DNA of 40,696 nucleotides from an uncultured Fluviicola sp. (GTDB lineage: Bacteria; Bacteroidota; Bacteroidia; Flavobacteriales_D; Crocinitomicaceae), in contig CALFOS010000062.1 in assembly GCA_937919725.1 (NCBI GenBank), forward strand, positions 1 through 40,696. Direction: 5' to 3'. Positions 1-40,696 of this stretch are shown here, one piece after another (position 1 is the stretch's first letter; each line of letters begins with the position of its first letter). The notes below the pieces were generated by a model that was not told the DNA's origin, did not search any database, and worked only from the letters and a program-made list of their open reading frames with translations. The translations under genes and the position numbers were made by a program.

Positions 1-265
1 CTGTGAAAATTTTACAATCATCGAGTAAATCTGCTGTTTTCGGAACGAGTACTTCTCTGATTTTCGCTCCAACTTCCTTTACCAAGTCTTCATTTTGATT
101 GTCTAGGCTGATGTGGAATCCTGCTTCAATTTTATTATCGAACTCCTGATTCTGGTAATAGTTCAAAAGCGACTCCACTTCCTCTTTTTGGAGCAAGGGA
201 AGTACAATAAATCCATCTTTGGAGAATTGCGCTTGAAGTTCATCATTTTTGAAAATAGTTCTCAT
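1..265 (-). CDS. N-terminal part of a PhyH-like (phytanoyl-CoA dioxygenase family) protein, truncated by the window edge
   Basis: The minus strand from the ATG at 265 reads MRTIFKNDELQAQFSKDGFIVLPLLQKEEVESLLNYYQNQEF..., open to the window edge. F..DGF.V...L...EV..L resembles PhyH N-termini. The iron-binding motif lies outside the window. Confidence 0.5.
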   Translation of the reverse strand, partial: MRTIFKNDELQAQFSKDGFIVLPLLQKEEVESLLNYYQNQEFDNKIEAGFHISLDNQNEDLVKEVGAKIREVLVPKTADLLDDCKIFT

Positions 266-274
266 AGCAGTAGT

Positions 275-1093
275 TTAGAGATAATCGACCAAGTTCCGTT
301 CAATATTCTTAAAGGTACGAATTCCCAGAATTAGTAGGACAAAAACGGGAAGAAATGAAACGCAATACATCCATTGAAATGGAAGATCAAAGAGCATGGA
401 ACGCAAGAAGTCAATCGTAGTTGCGATTGGGTTTGCGTAGTAAATGTATTCACGAAATGCTTCTGGAATCAATGTTGTAGGATAAAAAACGGGCGTTACC
501 CAGATTCCAAAATTTGTAAGGTAGGGAATCAAATGCTGTAAATCTCTTTTTTTGATGGTGAGGATATTTAACCAAATGGCGACGCTACTTCCAACTAAAA
601 CGGTCATCAAAATAGCAATTGGAAGAAACACAATTTTCGGCGAAAAGTCCATTCCTAAAACCAGCATGATGATGATCAATAACGAGAATGCGACAAAAAA
701 TTCAATTGTAGCAACGAGCACTTTTGAGATGGGAAGTAAGATTTTCGGGAAATAGACTTTTCGAATGAGTTCTTGTGAATTAAGCAAAGACGTTCCAGCG
801 CTGTGGACCATGTTCGTAAAAAAGTACCAGATTGTCATTCCACTGAAGGCGAACGCCACATAAGGTACGTCTCCCGTTTCAAGTTCAATTAATTTATCAA
901 AGAAAATGGTGAAAATCGTTAGGGCAATTAATGGCTGAATAATCATCCAAAGCACACCCAATTTTGTTTGAACGAAACGTGCCTTGAGATCGCGTTTTGC
1001 GAAGGAAAAGATCAATTGTCGGTATTGGTAAACGCTTCGGAGGTATTCCCCGAATTTCACTGCTTTGTTATTAATAACTGTTCTTCCCATCAC
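275..1093 (-). CDS. ABC-2 type polysaccharide/O-antigen export permease (Wzm/TagG-like)
   Basis: 272 aa, six or so hydrophobic segments, FAKRDLKARFVQTKLGVLWMIIQPL near the N-terminus, typical of polysaccharide ABC-2 permeases. Confidence 0.85.
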   Translation of the reverse strand: MMGRTVINNKAVKFGEYLRSVYQYRQLIFSFAKRDLKARFVQTKLGVLWMIIQPLIALTIFTIFFDKLIELETGDVPYVAFAFSGMTIWYFFTNMVHSAGTSLLNSQELIRKVYFPKILLPISKVLVATIEFFVAFSLLIIIMLVLGMDFSPKIVFLPIAILMTVLVGSSVAIWLNILTIKKRDLQHLIPYLTNFGIWVTPVFYPTTLIPEAFREYIYYANPIATTIDFLRSMLFDLPFQWMYCVSFLPVFVLLILGIRTFKNIERNLVDYL

Positions 1094-2073
1094 TTTTGCG
1101 AAAACATTTTACGGTGAACTTGTCGTCCGCCGATCATTCTTGGCGGCAACTTTACCATTTTTGGTTCTTTGGTGAAATCGTGGGTGTAAAAATCGTAGTA
1201 AATCACTTCTGGAATACTGAATGAAAGACGATAAAGCCATCTAAAAAAAGGATAATCCAAAAAGAAGAAAGGACCGAAACACCATTTTGTGAGATATCGA
1301 AAAGGCAACACAATTTTGCCTCCAAGAGACAATCGTTTTTGTTCTCTTTTGACCACTTGCCGCGCTTCTTCGAGGTAAGTCTTCTTTCCTACTTTTGAAC
1401 GTTGACCTTCTTTTCTGTGCCGAAATCCAGCGAGTTCGAGGGTGGTCGTGTGCAATTCCTCGAAGCGGAAAAAGCGCGACCACAGCTCCATGTCACCCGC
1501 TAAATCGTACTCAAAATCTAATGTGCCACCTGCTTTTTCCCACAATTCTCTTTTCCAAAACGATGATTCTTGTTGAATGAACTGGAAATCATTAGTGAGG
1601 TAACGGTATTTCGACCATCGACACCAAGGCAAAGTGATTTGTCCGACGAGCGCGCCATCTTCGGTGTACTCACGTGCCAAGCCCATCAACCAATTTACAT
1701 CCTTGTATTTATCAAAAATCTCCGCTACTTTGAAAAGTGAACGCGGCAAGTATTTATCATCCGAATTGAGCCACGCCATGATGTCGCCCGTCGATTTTTC
1801 GAAGCCTTTTTGAATCGCTTGGTATTGTCCTTCGTCGGGTTCACTGACCCAGTAAGAAAAATGTTTGGCGTAGCGCTCAATGATTTCTAAACTGTTGTCC
1901 GCGCTCCCACCATCAATCAGGATATACTCCAAATTAGGATAGTCCTGATCAATCACCGATTTAATGGTTTGCTCAAGGAACTCGCCATTGTTGTAGTTGA
2001 CAGTGACAATAGATATTTTCGGATAGCTTTTCACGTTGCAGAGTGTGGCTTCTAAAGTACACATATTAAACAA
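1090..2073 (-). CDS. Glycosyltransferase family 2
   Basis: PKISIVTVNYNNGEFLEQTIKSVIDQDYPNLEYILIDGGSADNSLEII plus MAWLNSDDKY (GT-A fold, DxD-like). Overlaps the start of the permease gene by 4 bp. Confidence 0.88.
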   Translation of the reverse strand: MFNMCTLEATLCNVKSYPKISIVTVNYNNGEFLEQTIKSVIDQDYPNLEYILIDGGSADNSLEIIERYAKHFSYWVSEPDEGQYQAIQKGFEKSTGDIMAWLNSDDKYLPRSLFKVAEIFDKYKDVNWLMGLAREYTEDGALVGQITLPWCRWSKYRYLTNDFQFIQQESSFWKRELWEKAGGTLDFEYDLAGDMELWSRFFRFEELHTTTLELAGFRHRKEGQRSKVGKKTYLEEARQVVKREQKRLSLGGKIVLPFRYLTKWCFGPFFFLDYPFFRWLYRLSFSIPEVIYYDFYTHDFTKEPKMVKLPPRMIGGRQVHRKMFSQK

Positions 2074-2133: not shown

Positions 2134-2994
2134 GTGCGAAAAATAGCCCACATCATTAATCCTTTCAACGCTAGTCCAACTTCGGATTTGTACACTGCAC
2201 AGCCAATCACTTTTGCATCGATGCTCAACGCGAAAGAAATAGCTCGGAACACAGTTGAGGTTGACTTGTTAACAGCTCAATACCCTGAAGACCGAAACAT
2301 GGTGGTGGAAGGCTTTCGGTCCACACGCGATTTGGACAGATCTGTTCTGGACTTAGGTACATTTGAAAAGCAGATGAAACTGCCTCTGATCGGCGATATT
2401 GTTCAGCGACTCTACGAAGAAAGTGACGCGGATTACCTGATCTACACGAACGTTGATATTGGCGTTTACCCAAATTTTTACATCGAAGTGAATCGCTTTA
2501 TTGATGAGGGGTTAGACGCGTTTATCATCAATCGAAGAAGGCTTCCAGCCCACTTTACGAAAGTGGAAGAACTGGAAGAACTCTACCTCGAAAAAGGGAA
2601 AAAGCACCCCGGGTTTGACTGTTTTGTGTTTCACCGCGACCTTTTCAAGGATTTTCAGTTAGCAGAAGTGTGCATTGGAGTTCCTTTTATTGGGATCACG
2701 TTTGCACAGAATATTTTTGCACTGGCGAAGAATTATCGACTTTTTGAGGATGAAGTACTCACTTTTCACATCGGGATGGAAATTTTCAAAGGTCGCGCAG
2801 CTAGAGATTACTTTCGGTATAACCGAAAACAATTTTGGAAAGCGATTAATTCACCGTTGAATAAGCATCTTTCCTCAAAAAAATGGCCCTACAGCAATTC
2901 TATTTTACCTATTCGATTATTCAAATGGGGCTTACAACCTAGTTTACCTATTCGCCTAGGATTGAAGTTAGAATGGCGCAGGCATTTTGGATAA
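2134..2994 (+). CDS. Putative glycosyltransferase-like protein of unassigned family (GTG start)
   Basis: 286 aa ORF within a polysaccharide locus. DADYLIYTNVDIGVYPNFY resembles the GT-A acidic metal-binding segment. No family recognised with certainty. Confidence 0.55.
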   Translation: MRKIAHIINPFNASPTSDLYTAQPITFASMLNAKEIARNTVEVDLLTAQYPEDRNMVVEGFRSTRDLDRSVLDLGTFEKQMKLPLIGDIVQRLYEESDADYLIYTNVDIGVYPNFYIEVNRFIDEGLDAFIINRRRLPAHFTKVEELEELYLEKGKKHPGFDCFVFHRDLFKDFQLAEVCIGVPFIGITFAQNIFALAKNYRLFEDEVLTFHIGMEIFKGRAARDYFRYNRKQFWKAINSPLNKHLSSKKWPYSNSILPIRLFKWGLQPSLPIRLGLKLEWRRHFG

Positions 2995-2999
2995 TCAGT

Positions 3000-3578
3000 T
3001 TACTGAACTAAGAGATTCTTTTCATCACCGCTCATTTCAATTTTGGGTTTTGAGGGCGCCATTTTATTGAGAACTGGTAGAAATTTAGTTCGAGCAGATT
3101 CGTACAGATTTTTAAAAATATATAAATGTACTCTCTCGTTGTCTTTTGATTCGACTCTGTAACCTAATTGCAAATTGAAATCTATACCATCTGCGTTATC
3201 TTGTCGAACTGTCGCCCTTAATTTTGTAAAATTGAATTCGAAGAAAAAGGCATCCATCATAGCAAAAACAGCCTGAATAGGAGCCGCTGAATTTCTGTAT
3301 GCTGAATCACCAATAAAAATACCTGCTTCGCCCACACGTGTTCGCCAATTGATCTGCTTCAAATTGATCACACCAATCTTTTCGCCGTCTTTTTGAATGA
3401 TCAGATATACCGAAGTATCATCAAGGGAATTGAACCACTTCTGTTGCATTTCCTCGGAAACTTCTTCTTGAAAAAACATCTGTTCAGCAACATCCGGTTG
3501 ATTTCGCCAATTGCGAACCATCTCAAGATCAGACTCAGTCATGCTGATTAATTCTAAACCGTAATTAGAAATTTTCAT
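3000..3578 (-). CDS. GNAT-family N-acetyl/acyltransferase (RimJ/RimL or sugar N-acyltransferase-like)
   Basis: LISMTESDLEMVRNWRNQPDVAEQMFFQEEVSEEMQQKWFNSL... and RNSAAPIQAVFAMMDAFFFEFNFTKLRATVRQDNADGIDFNLQLGY are typical of RimJ/RimL-type GNATs. Confidence 0.8.
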   Translation of the reverse strand: MKISNYGLELISMTESDLEMVRNWRNQPDVAEQMFFQEEVSEEMQQKWFNSLDDTSVYLIIQKDGEKIGVINLKQINWRTRVGEAGIFIGDSAYRNSAAPIQAVFAMMDAFFFEFNFTKLRATVRQDNADGIDFNLQLGYRVESKDNERVHLYIFKNLYESARTKFLPVLNKMAPSKPKIEMSGDEKNLLVQ

Positions 3579-4495
3579 TAGATTTTTACTTTAATCGCGT
3601 AGTTTGGTTTCTTAACGCGTGAAGAATAAATTCGATTGATATAGATTCCGAAAACGGCAATACTCGCTGCAATAATAGCCATGGCTGCAAGAACGGCAAT
3701 CATGAATACGTCGATTGTGCTTCCTGTTTCGAGTTGAAAGTAGATGTAATAAATTGTCATTGCAATAATGGCAAAAGCCGTGAAGATGCAAAGCATGACC
3801 ATGATTTTTAGTGGTACACTCGTGTAATAAATGATCAATCTGAACGAAAGCAGCATCAATTTCCACAATGAATATCCTGATTTCCCTTCGTGCCTTGGAT
3901 TGTGTTCAACTTCAACGAATTGTGCATTGAGCGTATACCAACCAATCACTTGATTGATGAATAAGTGATCTTGTGAATGAAAACGAATGCGATCTACAAT
4001 GTGTTCATCCAATAAGCGAAAGGACGAACCGATAGTAGAACCTCCTTGGCTTTTGCTAAACATCCGTTTGACGAATTGGGAACCAATTCTCCGGAGCCAA
4101 GATGATTTAACTTCTGGATATTTTCCATAAACGACATCCGCTTCACTTTCCTGATGGAATTCGATCAGTTTTTTTATCTCCGTTGGTGACGTTTGGAGGT
4201 CGTCGTCTATCGTTATTACCTTTCTCCCATTCGCCTGATCGATTCCGCAGAGGGTCGCACCATTCTGTCCAAAATTTCGCGACAGTCGAATGCAGGAAAT
4301 TGAATCGCCATGGATTTTCTTCAAACGTAATAGTTCATTCCAAGATGGGTCTTCACCAGAGTCTTCTACGAAAACTACTTCGAAGGTGGATTTCAGTTCA
4401 TCCATCACTGATTGTATTCCATCAAAAAGTGGCTCGAGCGTCTGAACGCTTCGATATACAGGTACGATTACTGAGAAATCAACTTTGTTCATCAC
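3578..4495 (-). CDS. GT2 glycosyltransferase, DPM1/GtrB/ArnC-like, with two C-terminal transmembrane segments
   Basis: FSVIVPVYRSVQTLEPLFDGIQSV, VVFVEDSGEDPSW, ITIDDDLQTSPTEI, and two C-terminal hydrophobic helices as in polyprenyl-phosphate glycosyltransferases. Confidence 0.85.
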   Translation of the reverse strand: MMNKVDFSVIVPVYRSVQTLEPLFDGIQSVMDELKSTFEVVFVEDSGEDPSWNELLRLKKIHGDSISCIRLSRNFGQNGATLCGIDQANGRKVITIDDDLQTSPTEIKKLIEFHQESEADVVYGKYPEVKSSWLRRIGSQFVKRMFSKSQGGSTIGSSFRLLDEHIVDRIRFHSQDHLFINQVIGWYTLNAQFVEVEHNPRHEGKSGYSLWKLMLLSFRLIIYYTSVPLKIMVMLCIFTAFAIIAMTIYYIYFQLETGSTIDVFMIAVLAAMAIIAASIAVFGIYINRIYSSRVKKPNYAIKVKI

Positions 4496-5475
4496 ATTTC
4501 AATTAATTCCGGACATATGCAATCCGATAAACGAACGATTCCGGACCCCCATGAAAGTCCAACCCCAAATCCAGATAGAAGACATGTTTTCTCATCTGCT
4601 AGCACTTCTCGACCCAGCGATTTGACAATTGTCAGTGGTATAGTCGCACAGCTTGTGTTGCCAAATTCATTCAAGGTGTAAGGTACTTTTTCTGATGGAA
4701 TTTTCAATTTTTTTCTGATGGATTCATTGAGTAATAGATTCGCTTGATGAAAGATAAAATGATCAATTTCCTCCACGGCCATATTTCCAACTTCCAAGGT
4801 TCGCAGCACATTAGGAACGACTTCCTTCAAGCCAAAATGAAACACCTCATGTCCATTCATTCTCATCGCTTGACCTCGTTTCTGTTGAATCGCTTCATAC
4901 CCTTTTCCATCCGTTTGAAGATTGAAAACGGCATCGCTCGCATCCACTGTAAACTCCAGTGCTGTTGCGGTTCCGGCGTCTGAAAAAATTGGAACTGTCG
5001 ATTGATCCATTTCATCTAACAAGTGAGTAATTGTGTCTCCAACAAGTAAAAGTCCTTTTTTCAGCTTCGATCCAGACATTAAACTCATAATAGTTGATAG
5101 ACCATAGACGTAACCTGCACAACCTTGATTGAGGTCCATGGCCATGCATGATTTTGGAAGACCCAATTGCTCTTGCAATAGCATACTTGAACCTGGAATT
5201 GGTTGATTAGGTGTTTGAGTTACCAAAATGAGAATCTCTATTTCATCTCGATTCCATTTGAGTTCATTCAATAATTTTTCTGCAGCTGCTAAACACATAT
5301 CAGCTGTTGATAGTGTTATAGGCGCAATTCTTCTGCTGGAAATTCCAGTAGTTTGAATCAAGAGGTCGATTGATTCCTCTGATAGATTTTTTAATTCACG
5401 GTTCGAAGTTCGATTGTTTGGAATCGCCGCAGAAATCCCAGAAATTCTAACATTTTGAATTTGAATAACCGCCAT
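4492..5475 (-). CDS. 3-oxoacyl-ACP synthase III (KAS III/FabH-like)
   Basis: 327 aa with Cys-His-Asn triad contexts present: DLNQGCAGYVYGL, HFIFHQANLLLNESI, NEFGNTSCATIPLTI. Confidence 0.9.
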   Translation of the reverse strand: MAVIQIQNVRISGISAAIPNNRTSNRELKNLSEESIDLLIQTTGISSRRIAPITLSTADMCLAAAEKLLNELKWNRDEIEILILVTQTPNQPIPGSSMLLQEQLGLPKSCMAMDLNQGCAGYVYGLSTIMSLMSGSKLKKGLLLVGDTITHLLDEMDQSTVPIFSDAGTATALEFTVDASDAVFNLQTDGKGYEAIQQKRGQAMRMNGHEVFHFGLKEVVPNVLRTLEVGNMAVEEIDHFIFHQANLLLNESIRKKLKIPSEKVPYTLNEFGNTSCATIPLTIVKSLGREVLADEKTCLLSGFGVGLSWGSGIVRLSDCICPELIEM

Positions 5476-5699
5476 TAGTTCTTCAGCATTAAGAGTACTT
5501 TTTGGTGCAAATCTTCTAATGAGTTAATGCTCTTCAGATCAATGTGACTTATTAAAACATCGAAATGCTCATCAATTGTACTCACCACAATTAGTGATTG
5601 CATTGAGGTCCATTCGTCTATTTTATCATACGAACTAGCGAAAGAACCCTCAAATTGTTCTCTAATCAAGTTTTGAAAAAAAGTGAAACTCTTATCCAT
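5475..5699 (-). CDS. Acyl carrier protein-like (phosphopantetheine attachment domain)
   Basis: From Met at 5699: MDKSFTFFQNLIREQFEG...IDEWTSMQSLIVVSTIDEHFDVLISHIDLKSINSLEDLHQKVL. This matches the ACP pattern (W-x-S-M/L, E/DeF.v.I, ...DL). The ORF track extends to 5765, but the ACP homology begins at the internal Met. Confidence 0.72.
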   Translation of the reverse strand: MDKSFTFFQNLIREQFEGSFASSYDKIDEWTSMQSLIVVSTIDEHFDVLISHIDLKSINSLEDLHQKVLLMLKN

Positions 5700-5810
5700 T
5701 TTTGTGTTTAATCTCCCATAGTATGGTGCAATAGAGATTGAACCAAAGATAGTATTTATTGCCAATTTTCCTTTACTTTAGTCAACGCTAAGAACCTCGA
5801 ACAAAACTTT

Positions 5811-6947
5811 GTGATACCATTTAACAAACCCTTTCTCACTGGCCAAGAAGGTCGATATCTTGAAGAAGCCATTTCTATTGGACGACTTGCTGGCAACGGA
5901 GAGTTCACCAAGAAATGTCATGAACGTCTCGCTACCGAATTTGGTTTCAAAAATTGCTTTTTAACAACCAGCGCTACCGCTGCACTTGAAATGGCGGCAT
6001 TACTAGTAGATTTAAAACCTGGTGATGAAGTTATTTTGCCTTCGTTCACATTTGTTTCTACAGCGACACCTTTCGCTTCGAGAGGAGCAAAATTGGTTTT
6101 TTTAGATAGTCAGATCGATCAGCCGAATTTGTCACTTGAGAGTTTAAATCAGAAAATTTCAAAAAAAACAAAAGTCATCGTTGTGATGCACTACGCTGGA
6201 ATGGCTTGTGAGATGGACGAAATAATGGAACTCGCGAACCGACATGGAATTATCGTCATTGAGGACGCTGCTCACTCGATTGGGGCGAATTACAAAAATC
6301 GACCTCTAGGAACAATAGGACATTTGGCTGCATTTTCTTTTCATGAAACCAAAAATATCAGTTCTGGTCAAGGTGGATTATTGGTCGTTAATGACGATCG
6401 GTTTATCGAGCGAGCCGAAATAATATGGGATCGTGGAACCAACAGAAAGCAATTTAATCTTGGACTAGCGGATTATTATTCTTGGCAGGATCACGGCTCC
6501 AACTTTTACCCATCTGAAATCATCGCTGCCTTTCTTCTAGCTCAGCTAGAAAAGCGAAAATTCATCGAGACTGAACGGAGTAAAATTTGGAATTTCTATC
6601 ATGGTGCGTTAAAGATTCTTCCTTCCATAGGCTACAGACAGCCCACTATTATGAACACTCAAAGCAACAATCACCATATCTATTACCTGCTTTGTCCAAC
6701 GAAAGAAAAGCGTGATGCTCTCATTGATTACCTCGAAAAACAGGGGGTACTTGCCGTTTTTCATTACACTCCGCTGCACTCAAGTGATTTCATGCGTTCT
6801 CAAAACAAGCTCATTCCAACTCTTCCAAATGCGGATTATTTCTCTGATCACTTAGTTCGACTTCCAATTTTTGTTGGGCTCGAGGAAAAGGACCTTCAGA
6901 AAATTGTTGATGCTGTTATAACGTTTACCGCTTCGAATGTAGGCTAA
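5811..6947 (+). CDS. wecE: dTDP-4-amino-4,6-dideoxygalactose transaminase-like (WecE/RffA), DegT/DnrJ family
   Basis: GTG start. MIPFNKPFLTGQE..., LTTSATAALEMAALLVDLKPGDEVILPSFTFVSTATPF, IEDAAHSIGANYK, SFHETKNISSGQGG (PLP Lys), RGTNRKQF. Closely resembles WecE as I remember it. Confidence 0.88.
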   Translation: MIPFNKPFLTGQEGRYLEEAISIGRLAGNGEFTKKCHERLATEFGFKNCFLTTSATAALEMAALLVDLKPGDEVILPSFTFVSTATPFASRGAKLVFLDSQIDQPNLSLESLNQKISKKTKVIVVMHYAGMACEMDEIMELANRHGIIVIEDAAHSIGANYKNRPLGTIGHLAAFSFHETKNISSGQGGLLVVNDDRFIERAEIIWDRGTNRKQFNLGLADYYSWQDHGSNFYPSEIIAAFLLAQLEKRKFIETERSKIWNFYHGALKILPSIGYRQPTIMNTQSNNHHIYYLLCPTKEKRDALIDYLEKQGVLAVFHYTPLHSSDFMRSQNKLIPTLPNADYFSDHLVRLPIFVGLEEKDLQKIVDAVITFTASNVG

Positions 6948-7498
6948 CAGGTATAGACTAGCGTATAGTGCTCCGATTCTAGAAATTTCAAGAAGACTTC
7001 TTGTCCATTAGACCGCGCGATTCCTGAAATTCCAGTTAAATTGATTATTTCAATCTCCTCCTTCATTGATTCAATCTCTCCTCTGAAAAGTTTGAAAACG
7101 GCCTCTTTAATTCCCCAGCATTGTCTCAATTCGAGTGGATTTAATGTCAATCTTAGAATTTCAGATGGCTGAAGAAAATGACTCTGGATTTGATTAATTT
7201 TAGTTGAAGGGATTTCAATGTCCACACCTACGTTTCCCTTCGTAGAAAGGTACAAAGCGAACCAATTTTCCGAATGCGAAATGGAAATATTCAGGTCTGG
7301 TCGATTTACGATAAAGGGCGCTCCATTACTGAGATGATCAAGCTCGACATCCCCAAGAGTTGATCCTAGAAATTTCTTCATCACTCGCGATTCAAAGTTT
7401 TGACGTGTTTCACTATTCGATTGAACAAATCCATTATCGCTCGAATGGATGATCCAGATTCTGCCTGAATTGGTTTCAATATGTCGGTGGTACATCAT
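6944..7498 (-). CDS. 4'-phosphopantetheinyl transferase superfamily (Sfp-type)
   Basis: NVGVDIEIPSTKI and CWGIKEAVFKLFRG are the two diagnostic PPTase motifs; ISHSENW upstream. Confidence 0.87.
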   Translation of the reverse strand: MMYHRHIETNSGRIWIIHSSDNGFVQSNSETRQNFESRVMKKFLGSTLGDVELDHLSNGAPFIVNRPDLNISISHSENWFALYLSTKGNVGVDIEIPSTKINQIQSHFLQPSEILRLTLNPLELRQCWGIKEAVFKLFRGEIESMKEEIEIINLTGISGIARSNGQEVFLKFLESEHYTLVYTC

Positions 7499-36839: not shown

Positions 36840-38789
36840 ATGCAACAGTCAAAAGCGATCACCACAGCAGGATTACTAATCACATTAGGAATTGTTTTTG
36901 GCGACATCGGAACCTCACCTCTTTACGTTTTTACGGCTATCACGGGTGGCAGTAATTTTGATCCAGAACTCATCATTGGCGGTATGTCGTGCGTTTTGTG
37001 GACCCTACTCATCATTGCAACCTACAAATATATTTACCTCGCTCTCAATGCAAACAATAAAGGGGAAGGGGGTATTTTCGCGCTCTACGCATTACTTCTT
37101 AATAAAAAATCGCGGTGGATTATCTTTCCCGCACTCATCGGATGTGCGTCACTCATCAGCGATGGATTCTTAACACCCGCTATTTCCATATCTTCAGCTG
37201 TGGAAGGCTTGGATGGGATCTTTCCTGGAATTAAGACCTTACCGATCGTAATCGTAATCATCATCGGACTCTTTCTATTTCAACAATTTGGAACACAACT
37301 GATTGGAAAGGCATTCGGGCCAGTTATGCTTTTATGGTTTCTACTACTTGGAACGCTCGGCTTCATGCAATTGATCGAAAATCCAATCGCCATCAAAGCC
37401 ATCAATCCAGCCTACGCTGTGAGCTTTATTTTCAATTATCCCGGTGGAATTTGGGTGATGGGTGCCGTGTTTCTTTGCACAACTGGGGCAGAAGCGCTTT
37501 ATTCAGATTTAGGTCATTTCGGAAAACAAAACATACGTATCAGTTGGTCGTTTGTGCTCTCAATGCTGCTGTTGAACTATTTCGGTCAAGCCTCTTTTTG
37601 TTTATCTCTACCTCCTGGCGCGAAGGTGGAATCGATCTTCTTCGCAACTGTACCAGCTGACTTACTTCCGTATGTAATCGGGATCGCGACACTTGCCGCC
37701 ATTATCGCAAGTCAAGCTCTCATTACAGGAATATTCACATTGGTAAACGAGGCAATCAAACTTAAATTATGGACGAATTTAAAGGTGAAACACCCAACTG
37801 AGGAGCGCGGGCAGGTCTATATTCCATTCATCAATTACTTCCTAATGATCGGTTGTATTTGCGTAGTGTTGATTTTTAGACGTTCAGCTCGAATGGAATC
37901 GGCTTATGGTTTAGCCATTGTTGTTGATATGTTAATGACCACGCTCCTATTCATTTTCTATTCCGTCTACATCAAAAAGAAGAAAGTTTGGTATTTGGTC
38001 CCGGGAATAATCCTATTCGGTAGTTTGGAACTCATTTTCCTCATCTCGAATGGTAACAAAATAGCGCATGGAGGATGGTTTACCTTGGTGATTGCATTCG
38101 GAATTTTTGTACTTCTCTATCTCTACTATCATGCAAAAATGATACGTCGAAAAATGGCCGAATATACTCAGATGTCTGAGGTACTTCCAATATTAATGGA
38201 TGTAATGGACGATAAATCTTTGCCCTTTGAGGCGACCAACTTAGTTTATCCAGCTCGCTCGAATTCAGTCGATTCGCTGGATACAACTATCGCTTATTCA
38301 CTTTTTAGAATGCGTCCAAAACGGGCAAACGTTTATTGGTTTGTCCACATTGAGACGATTAATGAACCGAACGGCATCGCGCATAAAGTGACCCCATTGA
38401 TCGATAAGCGTTGTTTCTTCGTTACGATAGAATTTGGATTTAAGGAAGATCATCGGATTGAACCAATTTTATTTGAAATCCAAGCGAATCTAAAAGCGAA
38501 AAAGAAGATTGCAGGTGTCAGCATTTTCAAAAGTGCCAAAACTAACGGCATTAGTCCCGATTTTAAATATGTTTTGTTGAACAGTCGAATTTCGGCGGAT
38601 TATCGCATGTCCTTTCTGGATGAAATGAGCATTCGCTTCTATCGCTTTATCCGAGTGATTGGTGTAAATTCTGCCGATGATTTTGGCTTGCACAACAGTA
38701 AAACGGTCACCGAATTCATCCCGATTCTACCTAGTACACTTGTAGATGTAAATGCACTCGAGGCGGAGCTTGATCCCGAAGAAGATTAA
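36840..38789 (+). CDS. kup: KUP/HAK-type potassium transporter
   Basis: LGIVFGDIGTSPLYVF, NNKGEGGIFALYALL, TTGAEALYSDLGHFGKQNIRISW, ASQALITGIFTLVNEAIKL. Confidence 0.95.
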   Translation: MQQSKAITTAGLLITLGIVFGDIGTSPLYVFTAITGGSNFDPELIIGGMSCVLWTLLIIATYKYIYLALNANNKGEGGIFALYALLLNKKSRWIIFPALIGCASLISDGFLTPAISISSAVEGLDGIFPGIKTLPIVIVIIIGLFLFQQFGTQLIGKAFGPVMLLWFLLLGTLGFMQLIENPIAIKAINPAYAVSFIFNYPGGIWVMGAVFLCTTGAEALYSDLGHFGKQNIRISWSFVLSMLLLNYFGQASFCLSLPPGAKVESIFFATVPADLLPYVIGIATLAAIIASQALITGIFTLVNEAIKLKLWTNLKVKHPTEERGQVYIPFINYFLMIGCICVVLIFRRSARMESAYGLAIVVDMLMTTLLFIFYSVYIKKKKVWYLVPGIILFGSLELIFLISNGNKIAHGGWFTLVIAFGIFVLLYLYYHAKMIRRKMAEYTQMSEVLPILMDVMDDKSLPFEATNLVYPARSNSVDSLDTTIAYSLFRMRPKRANVYWFVHIETINEPNGIAHKVTPLIDKRCFFVTIEFGFKEDHRIEPILFEIQANLKAKKKIAGVSIFKSAKTNGISPDFKYVLLNSRISADYRMSFLDEMSIRFYRFIRVIGVNSADDFGLHNSKTVTEFIPILPSTLVDVNALEAELDPEED

Positions 38790-39373
38790 CGGAGAAGCTT
38801 CCAGAGCGTCTTCCACATTATCTGAATATCGTGCCCAATTGTTGGTCGTTGCAAGTACCTTCTGTTGAGTTCTATTTTGGCAGGCATAATTTCTTCGAGG
38901 TATGTTTTTTGTGGATCAAGCGACGCACCCAACAAGGTGTTTTCGTTAAAATATTCAAGTGACGCATAATCTGTGATTCCTGGCCGAACAGCTAATACGT
39001 CTCGCTGTTCTTCGGTATAATGATCAACGTACTCTTGGACTTCTGGTCTGGGTCCAACAATGCTCATTTCACCTTTCAGGACATTGAGAAATTGTGGAAA
39101 CTCGTCGAGTTTGCTCTTTCGGAGGAAGTAGCCTATTTTGGTGATTCTACTGTCACGCATGCCCACGGTGAGTTTTCCATCGCGGTCAGCATTTTTCTTC
39201 ATTGTTCGGAATTTGTAGAGCCCAAAGTGTTTTCCATTTCTTCCTACACGTTCTTGAATGTAGAATGCCCCACCTCGACTCCCAAGAGTTATAAGTAGTG
39301 AAATAATCAATCCGAAAGGAAGAAAGATAATCAAAACGGTAAGGGAGACGAGTATATCAAAAATACGTTTCAT
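38786..39373 (-). CDS. Initiating sugar (phosphoglycosyl) transferase, PglC/WcaJ-like
   Basis: RVGRNGKHFGLYKFRTM, RITKIGYFLRKSKLDEFPQFLNVLKGEMSIVGPRPEVQEYV, RPGITDYASLEY. Confidence 0.92.
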   Translation of the reverse strand: MKRIFDILVSLTVLIIFLPFGLIISLLITLGSRGGAFYIQERVGRNGKHFGLYKFRTMKKNADRDGKLTVGMRDSRITKIGYFLRKSKLDEFPQFLNVLKGEMSIVGPRPEVQEYVDHYTEEQRDVLAVRPGITDYASLEYFNENTLLGASLDPQKTYLEEIMPAKIELNRRYLQRPTIGHDIQIMWKTLWKLLR

Positions 39374-39418
39374 GGATGGGGTAAAGTTAACTTAAAATTC
39401 CTTGAGAAAAATCGCTTG

Positions 39419-39680
39419 ACATTTCGCACGATTGCGAAATGTGCGAATGGTAAAATTGGACAACAAAATTGTGGGGTTTAGAAGAGGGTGTGGATGAAAT
39501 TTAGAGATGTAAATTGGCGAAATGAGATCAAAAAAACAGTTGTCATTTCGCAATATTGCGAAATGTACAAATGGCAAATTGAAATAAAAATTTCTAAGTA
39601 ACAATTAGCAAAATGAGAGCATAAAATCGGTCGTCATTTCGCAATATTGCGAAATGCACAAATGGCAAAATTGTATCAAA
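39419..39680. repeat. Three copies of a 22-bp palindrome within a larger degenerate repeat unit
   Basis: CATTTCGCAcgatTGCGAAATG (39420-39441), CATTTCGCAATATTGCGAAATG (39544-39565) and the same again at 39635-39656, each followed by a similar YRCRAATGGYAAA(A)TTG sequence. Confidence 0.9.
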
Positions 39681-39756
39681 AAATCACTCAAAAATCTTGC
39701 GGCAAGAATTAATATTCCTTAATTTCAAACAAACCTTATCACTTTACACTTACATT

Positions 39757-40107
39757 ATGGGGACAACTAAAAAACATTTCTACAAAGAAGATCAACTACA
39801 ATTCTCGGATCTTTGCAAGGCATTGGGGCACCCAGCTCGGGTTTCAATTATACAACTGCTCTCAAAAAATGGTCACACCAACTGCACGGAACTTCAGACA
39901 AAAATCGAACTTTCACCCTCAACTATTTCGCGTCATTGTCAGATTCTTCATCGCTATGGAATTATTGGATACGAAGTGATTGGGAGTAACTGTTTCTATC
40001 GACTGGACAACACTGTCTTGAATAACCTCAACGATTACATCGACGCAATCAATTGTGAAACAACATCTATTACGGGAAGAGTATATTACCCGCAAGCACC
40101 GATGTAA
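39757..40107 (+). CDS. ArsR-family winged-helix transcriptional regulator
   Basis: From Met at 39757: FSDLCKALGHPARVSIIQLLSKNGHTNCTELQTKIELSPSTISRHCQILHRYGIIGYEVIGSNCFYRLD, typical ArsR wHTH. Confidence 0.87.
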   Translation: MGTTKKHFYKEDQLQFSDLCKALGHPARVSIIQLLSKNGHTNCTELQTKIELSPSTISRHCQILHRYGIIGYEVIGSNCFYRLDNTVLNNLNDYIDAINCETTSITGRVYYPQAPM

Positions 40108-40132
40108 CAATTTCGAACTAACAATTAAAGAA

Positions 40133-40696
40133 TCAACCGATAATTTTTTGAACCGATTTGCGCACAGCATCTATCACCGTGTCCACCTGCTCATTCGTCA
40201 AATCGAAGTAAACTGGCAAACTGATTTCGTTGGCATATTTCGCGTATGCCTCAGGATAATCCTCCATTTTGTAGCCGCGCTTTTTGTAGGCTGTAAGAAT
40301 TGGAAGCGGTTGAAAATGAACATTTACCGATACATCACAATCGAAAATCTCTTGAATGATCGCATCGCGCTGAGCTTCAGTTATGCCTTTTATTCTGAGT
40401 AGATACAAATGATAACTCGATGTTTTGGTCGCTGTTTCGAATAGCGGTTCAATTGCCCAACTATCCGATTTGAACGCTATGGCATAGCGATGAAAAATTT
40501 CATTTCGTCGGATCAAGTTTTCCGCATAACGATCGAGTTCCACCAGTCCAATCGCCGCTTGAATATCGGTCATGTTACACTTAAAACCAGGTTCTTCGAC
40601 GTCGTATTTCCAATTTCCTTTTTGCGTTTTCGCTAATGCATCTTTGTTTTGACCGTGCAAAATTTTCACGCACATTTCACGGTAAATGTCTTCGTG
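40133..40696 (-). CDS. C-terminal part of a DegT/DnrJ/EryC1-family aminotransferase (truncated by the window edge)
   Basis: GFKCNMTDIQAAIGLVELDRYAENLIRRNEIFHRYAIAF and C-terminal SLPVYFDLTNEQVDTVIDAV; the frame stays open to 40696. Confidence 0.87.
   Translation of the reverse strand, partial: HEDIYREMCVKILHGQNKDALAKTQKGNWKYDVEEPGFKCNMTDIQAAIGLVELDRYAENLIRRNEIFHRYAIAFKSDSWAIEPLFETATKTSSYHLYLLRIKGITEAQRDAIIQEIFDCDVSVNVHFQPLPILTAYKKRGYKMEDYPEAYAKYANEISLPVYFDLTNEQVDTVIDAVRKSVQKIIG

Follow-up and report, generated by a model that had tools for sequence, protein, structure and literature searches.

A candidate acyl-carrier cassette for surface-sugar N-acylation in an uncultured Fluviicola

Amino sugars bearing a 3-hydroxybutanoyl group on a 4-amine are well known (PMC3210612, PMC8074265), and gene modules for N-acylation of surface sugars have been described in two bacterial groups. 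The viosamine island of Pseudomonas syringae pv. tabaci 6605 comprises vioA, vioS, vioR, vioB, acp, vioT and vioM and is homologous to the flagellin glycosylation island of P. aeruginosa PAK (orfA-E, orfN); mutants of P. syringae studied by mass spectrometry provide evidence for the module, and the flagellin sugar of that species, a 4-amino-4,6-dideoxyhexose, bears an N-linked 3-hydroxybutanoyl group (PMC3927599). For wfpC-wfpG of the Flavobacterium psychrophilum O-polysaccharide (O-PS) R1 locus, the N-acyl group has been proposed to arise by a route resembling type II fatty-acid synthesis, with 3,5-dihydroxyhexanoyl as the suggested product (PMC6519341). Here we describe a six-gene cassette from an uncultured Fluviicola sp. 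(Bacteroidota), carried on a stretch of 40,696 nucleotides (CALFOS010000062.1, assembly GCA_937919725.1) that is one whole contig (C62) of a 3.04 Mb assembly in 315 contigs and is referred to below as the window. Most likely, the cassette builds a short fatty-acid-like group on a carrier of its own and links that group to an amino sugar destined for the cell surface, and we think it probable that it is dedicated to an N-acylated 4-amino-4,6-dideoxyhexose. What was observed is its gene content, order, conservation, active-site residues and co-occurrence.

All six genes lie where a sequence-only reading of this DNA had placed them:

3000..3578, minus strand: PseH-like GNAT N-acyltransferase (PF13302/PF13420; SpeG/PseH matches in the PDB)
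3578..4495, minus strand: ArnC/GtrB-type polyprenyl-phosphate glycosyltransferase (GT) (PF00535; GtrB 5ekp and ArnC 9hwj in the PDB)
4492..5475, minus strand: beta-ketoacyl-ACP synthase III (KAS III), 327 aa (PF08541/PF08545; triad Cys119-His243-Asn273)
5475..5699, minus strand: dedicated acyl carrier protein (ACP), 74 aa (ATG at 5699; motif, profile and fold)
5811..6947, plus strand: WecE-type dTDP-4-keto-6-deoxyhexose 4-aminotransferase (PRK11706, TIGR02379; 6blg)
6944..7498, minus strand: Sfp/AcpT-type phosphopantetheinyl transferase (PPTase), 184 aa (PF01648 27.9 bits, cut-off 25; GVDIE, WGIKEAVFK)

The tight minus-strand run of four genes that had been described is present at every junction: the ACP and KAS III genes have base 5475 in common, the KAS III and GT genes overlap at 4492-4495, and base 3578 belongs to both the GT and the GNAT genes. 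Equally as described, wecE is divergent from this run and the PPTase gene convergent with wecE, their 3' ends overlapping at 6944-6947. Pfam cut-offs are exceeded by the KAS III (PF08541/PF08545), GT2, GNAT, DegT and ACPS families. The term 'self-contained' went too far, since the cassette holds no ketoreductase and rmlB lies on another contig.

This arrangement is not due to chance, because the same four-gene order is found in nine close loci (the window, L008-L011 and L048-L051), the ACP, KAS III, GtrB-type and GNAT genes keeping both order and direction in all nine. A divergent, adjacent wecE accompanies the run in seven of these loci, and in four (the window, L009, L010 and L048) a PPTase gene stands at the far end of wecE, so that the neighbourhood search proposed for KAS III, ACP, WecE and PPTase does find conserved linkage. 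Co-occurrence was scored in 25 genomes of the genus, with WecE called at E <1e-80 and a KAS III hit at E <1e-50. WecE is found in eight of the nine genomes that carry the cassette or a diverged form related to it (the G010 and G018 forms are counted here) and in two of the 16 without (Fisher p = 3.4e-4, a guide only, the genomes being related and the value not corrected for phylogeny).

The PPTase belongs to the Sfp/AcpT type by its PF01648 score and its G-x-D and W-x-x-K-E motifs. Whether it has a part in the cassette can be judged from its distribution. The chance presence of a second housekeeping PPTase, a reading compatible with the function proposed here for the cassette, strikes us as doubtful: the gene is adjacent in only four loci, and G001 and G015, which have no cassette-type KAS III hit, carry a close relative of it, but it adjoins wecE in all four of those loci, another PPTase of the genome is encoded on contig C196, and a close or linked PPTase is present in 8/9 genus genomes with the cassette or a variant vs 2/16 without (p = 3.4e-4; the weaker of the two co-occurrence tests, its groups having been set by inspection and with the L048 gene). 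The L048 PPTase is quite different in sequence while occupying the same spot, which suggests independent recruitment and argues for function rather than inheritance alone.

By motif, profile and predicted fold, the 74-residue protein is a real ACP, in support of the dedicated carrier first proposed. It is matched by no Pfam or NCBIfam model, and its distant relatives in L052-L055 fall within one or a few bits of the PP-binding cut-off. A W-x-S-[ML] motif (W30, S32) is invariant in an alignment of 13 sequences; the first PDB match of the profile is the Geobacter ACP 2lml (E 3.3e-4, serines aligned), with more ACPs below it; and the AlphaFold (AF2) model (pLDDT 85.7) shows four helices, the second of which begins at Ser32. 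Foldseek neighbours of this model in the PDB are overwhelmingly ACPs, at probabilities up to 1.00 and at E-values of 0.06 or worse, which are poor because the protein is so short. We place the gene at 5475-5699 because relatives align only from residue 23 of the longer open reading frame; a 96-aa protein starting at 5765 was rejected as over-extended, the homologues supporting 74 aa. The sole Pfam-recognised ACP of the genome, on contig C304, is presumably the housekeeping one.

The KAS III should be a decarboxylating condensing enzyme, because Cys119, His243 and Asn273 are kept. An intact Cys-His-Asn triad is a requirement for decarboxylating condensation, and it is present in all 21 aligned sequences (the window and 20 relatives). 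The protein scores 234 bits on PRK09352, below the cut-off of 249, and its closest solved relative is 4efi. Two other identities were considered: a CerJ-like acyltransferase with an altered triad is not supported, as the Asn is present, and a housekeeping FabH copy is unlikely, the other KAS III-like genes of the genome being 28-29% identical to this one. In polysaccharide loci on plasmids of Parabacteroides distasonis and Pontibrevibacter, relatives adjoin genes of the ACP, SDR, AMP-binding or aminotransferase kinds. Two P. distasonis plasmid records (L091, L092) hold loci of a capsule-like type that combine KAS III with a pair of small carrier proteins, an AMP-binding protein, an SDR and an acetyltransferase, which we regard as another form of acyl-sugar module.

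The aminotransferase exceeds both of its NCBIfam cut-offs (495 bits against 375 for PRK11706, 443 against 434.85 for TIGR02379), and solved WecE-type structures are the closest to it (6blg, E 2e-99). Its sequence favours the WecE assignment, with Fuc4N (galacto) or its C4 epimer Qui4N (gluco) as the predicted amine. To supply the WecE substrate an RmlB-type dehydratase is required, and contig C291 encodes one.

For the glycosyltransferase gene, the ATG at 4492 is the probable start, since alignments with relatives begin at residue 2. A GT2 domain, an Asp motif (IDDD) and a pair of C-terminal transmembrane segments (231-249 and 263-281) are features that its product has in common with ArnC (9hwj) and GtrB (5ekp), and together with the sequence similarity to these structures they bear out its placement in the GtrB/ArnC-like group; the acyl sugar therefore probably goes via undecaprenyl phosphate. 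ArnC, too, handles an N-acylated (formyl) 4-amino sugar; the window enzyme is not ArnC itself, scoring 139 bits on the ArnC equivalog model, whose cut-off is 529. For the GNAT, WecD had been cited as a family example; a WecD orthologue was rejected because the PDB search gave no WecD match, and the protein is PseH-like, at 76.2 bits on TIGR03585 (PseH) and so below the cut-off of 93.1.

From these assignments we infer the whole series of reactions, the length of the acyl group and its acceptor, the steps being drawn from knowledge of the families. The PPTase would convert the apo-ACP to the holo form. On this carrier KAS III would join malonyl to a short acyl-CoA, probably acetyl-CoA, and so produce a 3-ketoacyl-ACP (acetoacetyl-ACP). 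Because the cassette is without a ketoreductase, housekeeping FabG may then reduce this intermediate to 3-hydroxybutanoyl-ACP, or the keto form may be used. WecE would turn the RmlB product into a dTDP-4-amino-4,6-dideoxyhexose (Fuc4N or Qui4N), the GNAT would take the acyl group off the ACP and place it on the 4-amine of the dTDP sugar, and the ArnC/GtrB-like enzyme would pass the acyl sugar to undecaprenyl phosphate. A GT-C enzyme, possibly a PMT_2-TPR protein encoded on contig C111, would finally transfer the sugar outside the cytoplasm onto an ABC-exported glycan or a protein.

The acyl product is probably 3-hydroxybutanoyl, made via FabG, or, more novel, acetoacetyl. Searches with five ketoreductase queries (tblastn) found no ketoreductase in the window or the eight other close loci, and the window's genome gave no match to the ketoreductase of the related locus L053 at E 1e-25, a threshold at which weaker SDRs such as FabG are not listed. 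By analogy with P. syringae, where FabG, presumed present, did not replace VioR, the window product could stay acetoacetyl; but 3-hydroxybutanoyl on 4-amino sugars is well documented and FabG may act here, so that we give the keto product a low probability. On that improbable reading the surface glycan would bear a ketone: the GNAT would use the KAS III product directly to form an N-acetoacetyl (3-oxobutanoyl) sugar, to be handled next by the polyprenyl-phosphate GT and then by a GT-C of TMTC-like type that has TPR repeats. The case for the unreduced group is that the cassette and its eight close relatives have no ketoreductase and that FabG may not serve the linked ACP. A literature search for N-acetoacetyl amino sugars returned nothing useful.

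A rather unlikely alternative is that the GNAT uses acetyl-CoA, so that ordinary dTDP-Fuc4NAc is formed, as for enterobacterial common antigen, while KAS III and the ACP supply an acyl group for another sugar or an unusual lipid. The GNAT is PseH-like, PseH uses acetyl-CoA, and WecE with a GNAT would by themselves suffice for Fuc4NAc. Against this, the GNAT gene forms one overlapping run with those for ACP and KAS III in each of the nine close loci and comes after them in L053-L055, the run holds no other acyltransferase or lipid gene, and the precedent modules pair KAS III and ACP with a sugar N-acyltransferase. A longer or branched acyl group, from another KAS III primer (e.g. a branched acyl-CoA) or from housekeeping chain extension, is rather unlikely too: the primer range of KAS III is not readable from sequence, and Qui4N of the Shewanella MR-4 type bears 3-hydroxy-3-methylbutyrate or 3-hydroxybutyrate depending on the medium (PMC3210612), but the cassette is without a second KAS, a dehydratase or an enoyl reductase, and the form with two KAS and a reductase is met only in more distant relatives.

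These more distant relatives are L053, L054 and L055, which hold two KAS III genes, an ACP, a ketoreductase (confirmed in L053 as a member of the SDR/KR family), GtrB and a GNAT. In each a homologous protein adjoins the cassette, the three being 37-39% identical to one another; PMT_2 exceeds its Pfam cut-off in L054 only, L053 gives TPR matches only, and L055 has no Pfam match. The window's own genome encodes a relative of this GT-C-TPR type on contig C111 (L107, 1787-3676), a membrane protein that matches PMT_2 weakly, carries TPR repeats and resembles eukaryotic TMTC proteins in its layout. It is 69% identical to a copy in G019 that lies on the same contig as the G019 cassette, about 24 kb away.

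Several observations weigh against the N-acylation pathway as set out above. The C111 protein is tied to the window by synteny in G019 only. No reductase is linked to the cassette, and P. syringae lost the modified sugar in its vioR mutant (PMC3927599) despite a presumed housekeeping FabG. The wecE gene is not adjacent in L008 and L011, both of whose genomes carry it elsewhere, and a close WecE is missing from G018 and G026, although each carries a variant of the cassette. The use of acyl-ACP by the GNAT is assumed, GNAT donors usually being acyl-CoA. Of the non-acetyl N-acyl 4-amino sugar put forward in the sequence-only reading, then, part is supported, as it fits the dedicated ACP, the distinct KAS III, the linkage and the co-occurrence with WecE; rmlB lies outside the cassette, and a ketoreductase is missing from it.

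Beyond the four-gene run, the close loci go on to the convergent orf286, then to a GT2 gene, which L051 does not have, and to an ABC permease, in the window as follows:

2134..2994, plus strand: orf286, a conserved partner with no Pfam family, probable GT-A-like nucleotide-sugar enzyme
1090..2073, minus strand: GT2 glycosyltransferase (PF00535; in 8/9 close loci)
275..1093, minus strand: ABC-2 (Wzm/KpsM-type) permease (PF01061; in 9/9 close loci)
1..265, minus strand: 5' part of a PhyH-family dioxygenase gene that is truncated where the contig stops (PhyH Pfam match of the L010 counterpart)

The orf286 product is among the most conserved of the block (69-84% identical in the eight close loci, 35% in L054). 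Its sequence profile has no convincing PDB relative, and its low-confidence model (pLDDT 61.6) has nucleotidyltransferases, ArnC, GtrB and DPM synthase as Foldseek neighbours, which makes it a probable GT-A-like nucleotide-sugar enzyme. The first 1.1 kb of the window matches L081 and L083 at 78-79% DNA identity, and in L081-L084 the region past the contig end holds several consecutive PhyH dioxygenase genes, a methyltransferase, an ABC ATPase and further oxygenases, a density of Fe/2OG-type enzymes unusual for a polysaccharide locus. The loci of relatives also carry WelO5-like oxygenases and a sulfotransferase. In L106 (G000:C50, 1324-3450) and at L081:7860-9437, a gene of the WelO5-like oxygenase/halogenase family (PF22814, 192-194 bits) adjoins a sulfotransferase. 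Contig C50, which also encodes an APS kinase and, at 114-1319, an ABC ATPase, probably continues the window locus. A 1068-aa single chain at L081:833-4039 has matches to UbiA prenyltransferase, glycosyltransferase family 1 and GDSL lipase. The right end of the window (38786-40675), which encodes an initiating sugar transferase (PF02397) together with a DegT aminotransferase of which the C-terminal part is present, is the edge of another glycan locus. The wider locus of the cassette, which had been described as O-antigen-like, has an ABC exporter and PhyH genes; neither Wzx nor Wzy was seen among the genes examined, several neighbours being unannotated, and an ABC permease and ATPase are present instead. 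A literature search on PhyH together with O-antigen gave nothing useful.

How the cassette compares with known systems can be considered protein by protein and module by module. The carrier finds a counterpart in the Geobacter metallireducens holo-ACP 2lml (GmACP3), likewise a specialised ACP with a W-x-S-[ML] site, which comes from a different phylum, is 16% identical in structural alignment, and whose gene, we presume, lies near lipopolysaccharide genes. Likeness to the viosamine island and to wfpC-G was judged by described gene content and not by direct comparison of the sequences (VioS, VioB, wfpC-G). Like the window, the viosamine island clusters a 4-aminotransferase, a single KAS III, a small ACP, an N-acyltransferase and a GT. 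It alone has the linked, required ketoreductase vioR, a methyltransferase and a large GT of 1,173 aa, with no PPTase among its seven ORFs, whereas the window alone has a PPTase and an ArnC/GtrB-type GT and is without a ketoreductase. The features typical of the island that the window displays are the linked 4-aminotransferase, the KAS III triad and the dedicated ACP. The N-acyltransferase is VioB in the island and a GNAT in the window; because a linked ketoreductase (VioR) is missing, we describe the cassette as working like the viosamine-island type and do not file it as a member. With F. psychrophilum wfpC-G it shares a Bacteroidota surface glycan, a dedicated ACP, a ketoacyl-ACP synthase and an N-acyltransferase; two KAS with a ketoreductase, a PglD-type acyltransferase, a UDP-bacillosamine-type substrate, a 3,5-dihydroxyhexanoyl product and the Wzx/Wzy pathway set F. 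psychrophilum apart from it, and it is L053-L055, unlike the window, that share its content of two KAS, ACP and ketoreductase. The suggestion that the general chemistry may be known was therefore sound, the gene combination being of a kind already described in P. syringae (PMC3927599) and in F. psychrophilum (PMC6519341); literature searches for O-antigen clusters with ACP and KAS and hydroxybutyryl, also with a PPTase, gave nothing relevant. The cassette would bring to a Bacteroidota clade a known but little-catalogued form of surface-sugar diversification, in which a small-scale fatty-acid synthesis takes place on a private ACP; here it would have a PPTase of its own and would probably proceed via undecaprenyl phosphate. 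The contrast between cassettes that lack and cassettes that carry a reductase leads to a simple prediction, open to test, of the acyl structure to be expected from the genes present. Modules of this sort are known from Pseudomonas flagella and Flavobacterium O-antigens; the cassette is their Bacteroidota variant, and what is new here is the linked PPTase, a cassette without a ketoreductase, and a polyprenyl-phosphate-type GT within an ABC-transporter locus rich in PhyH dioxygenases.

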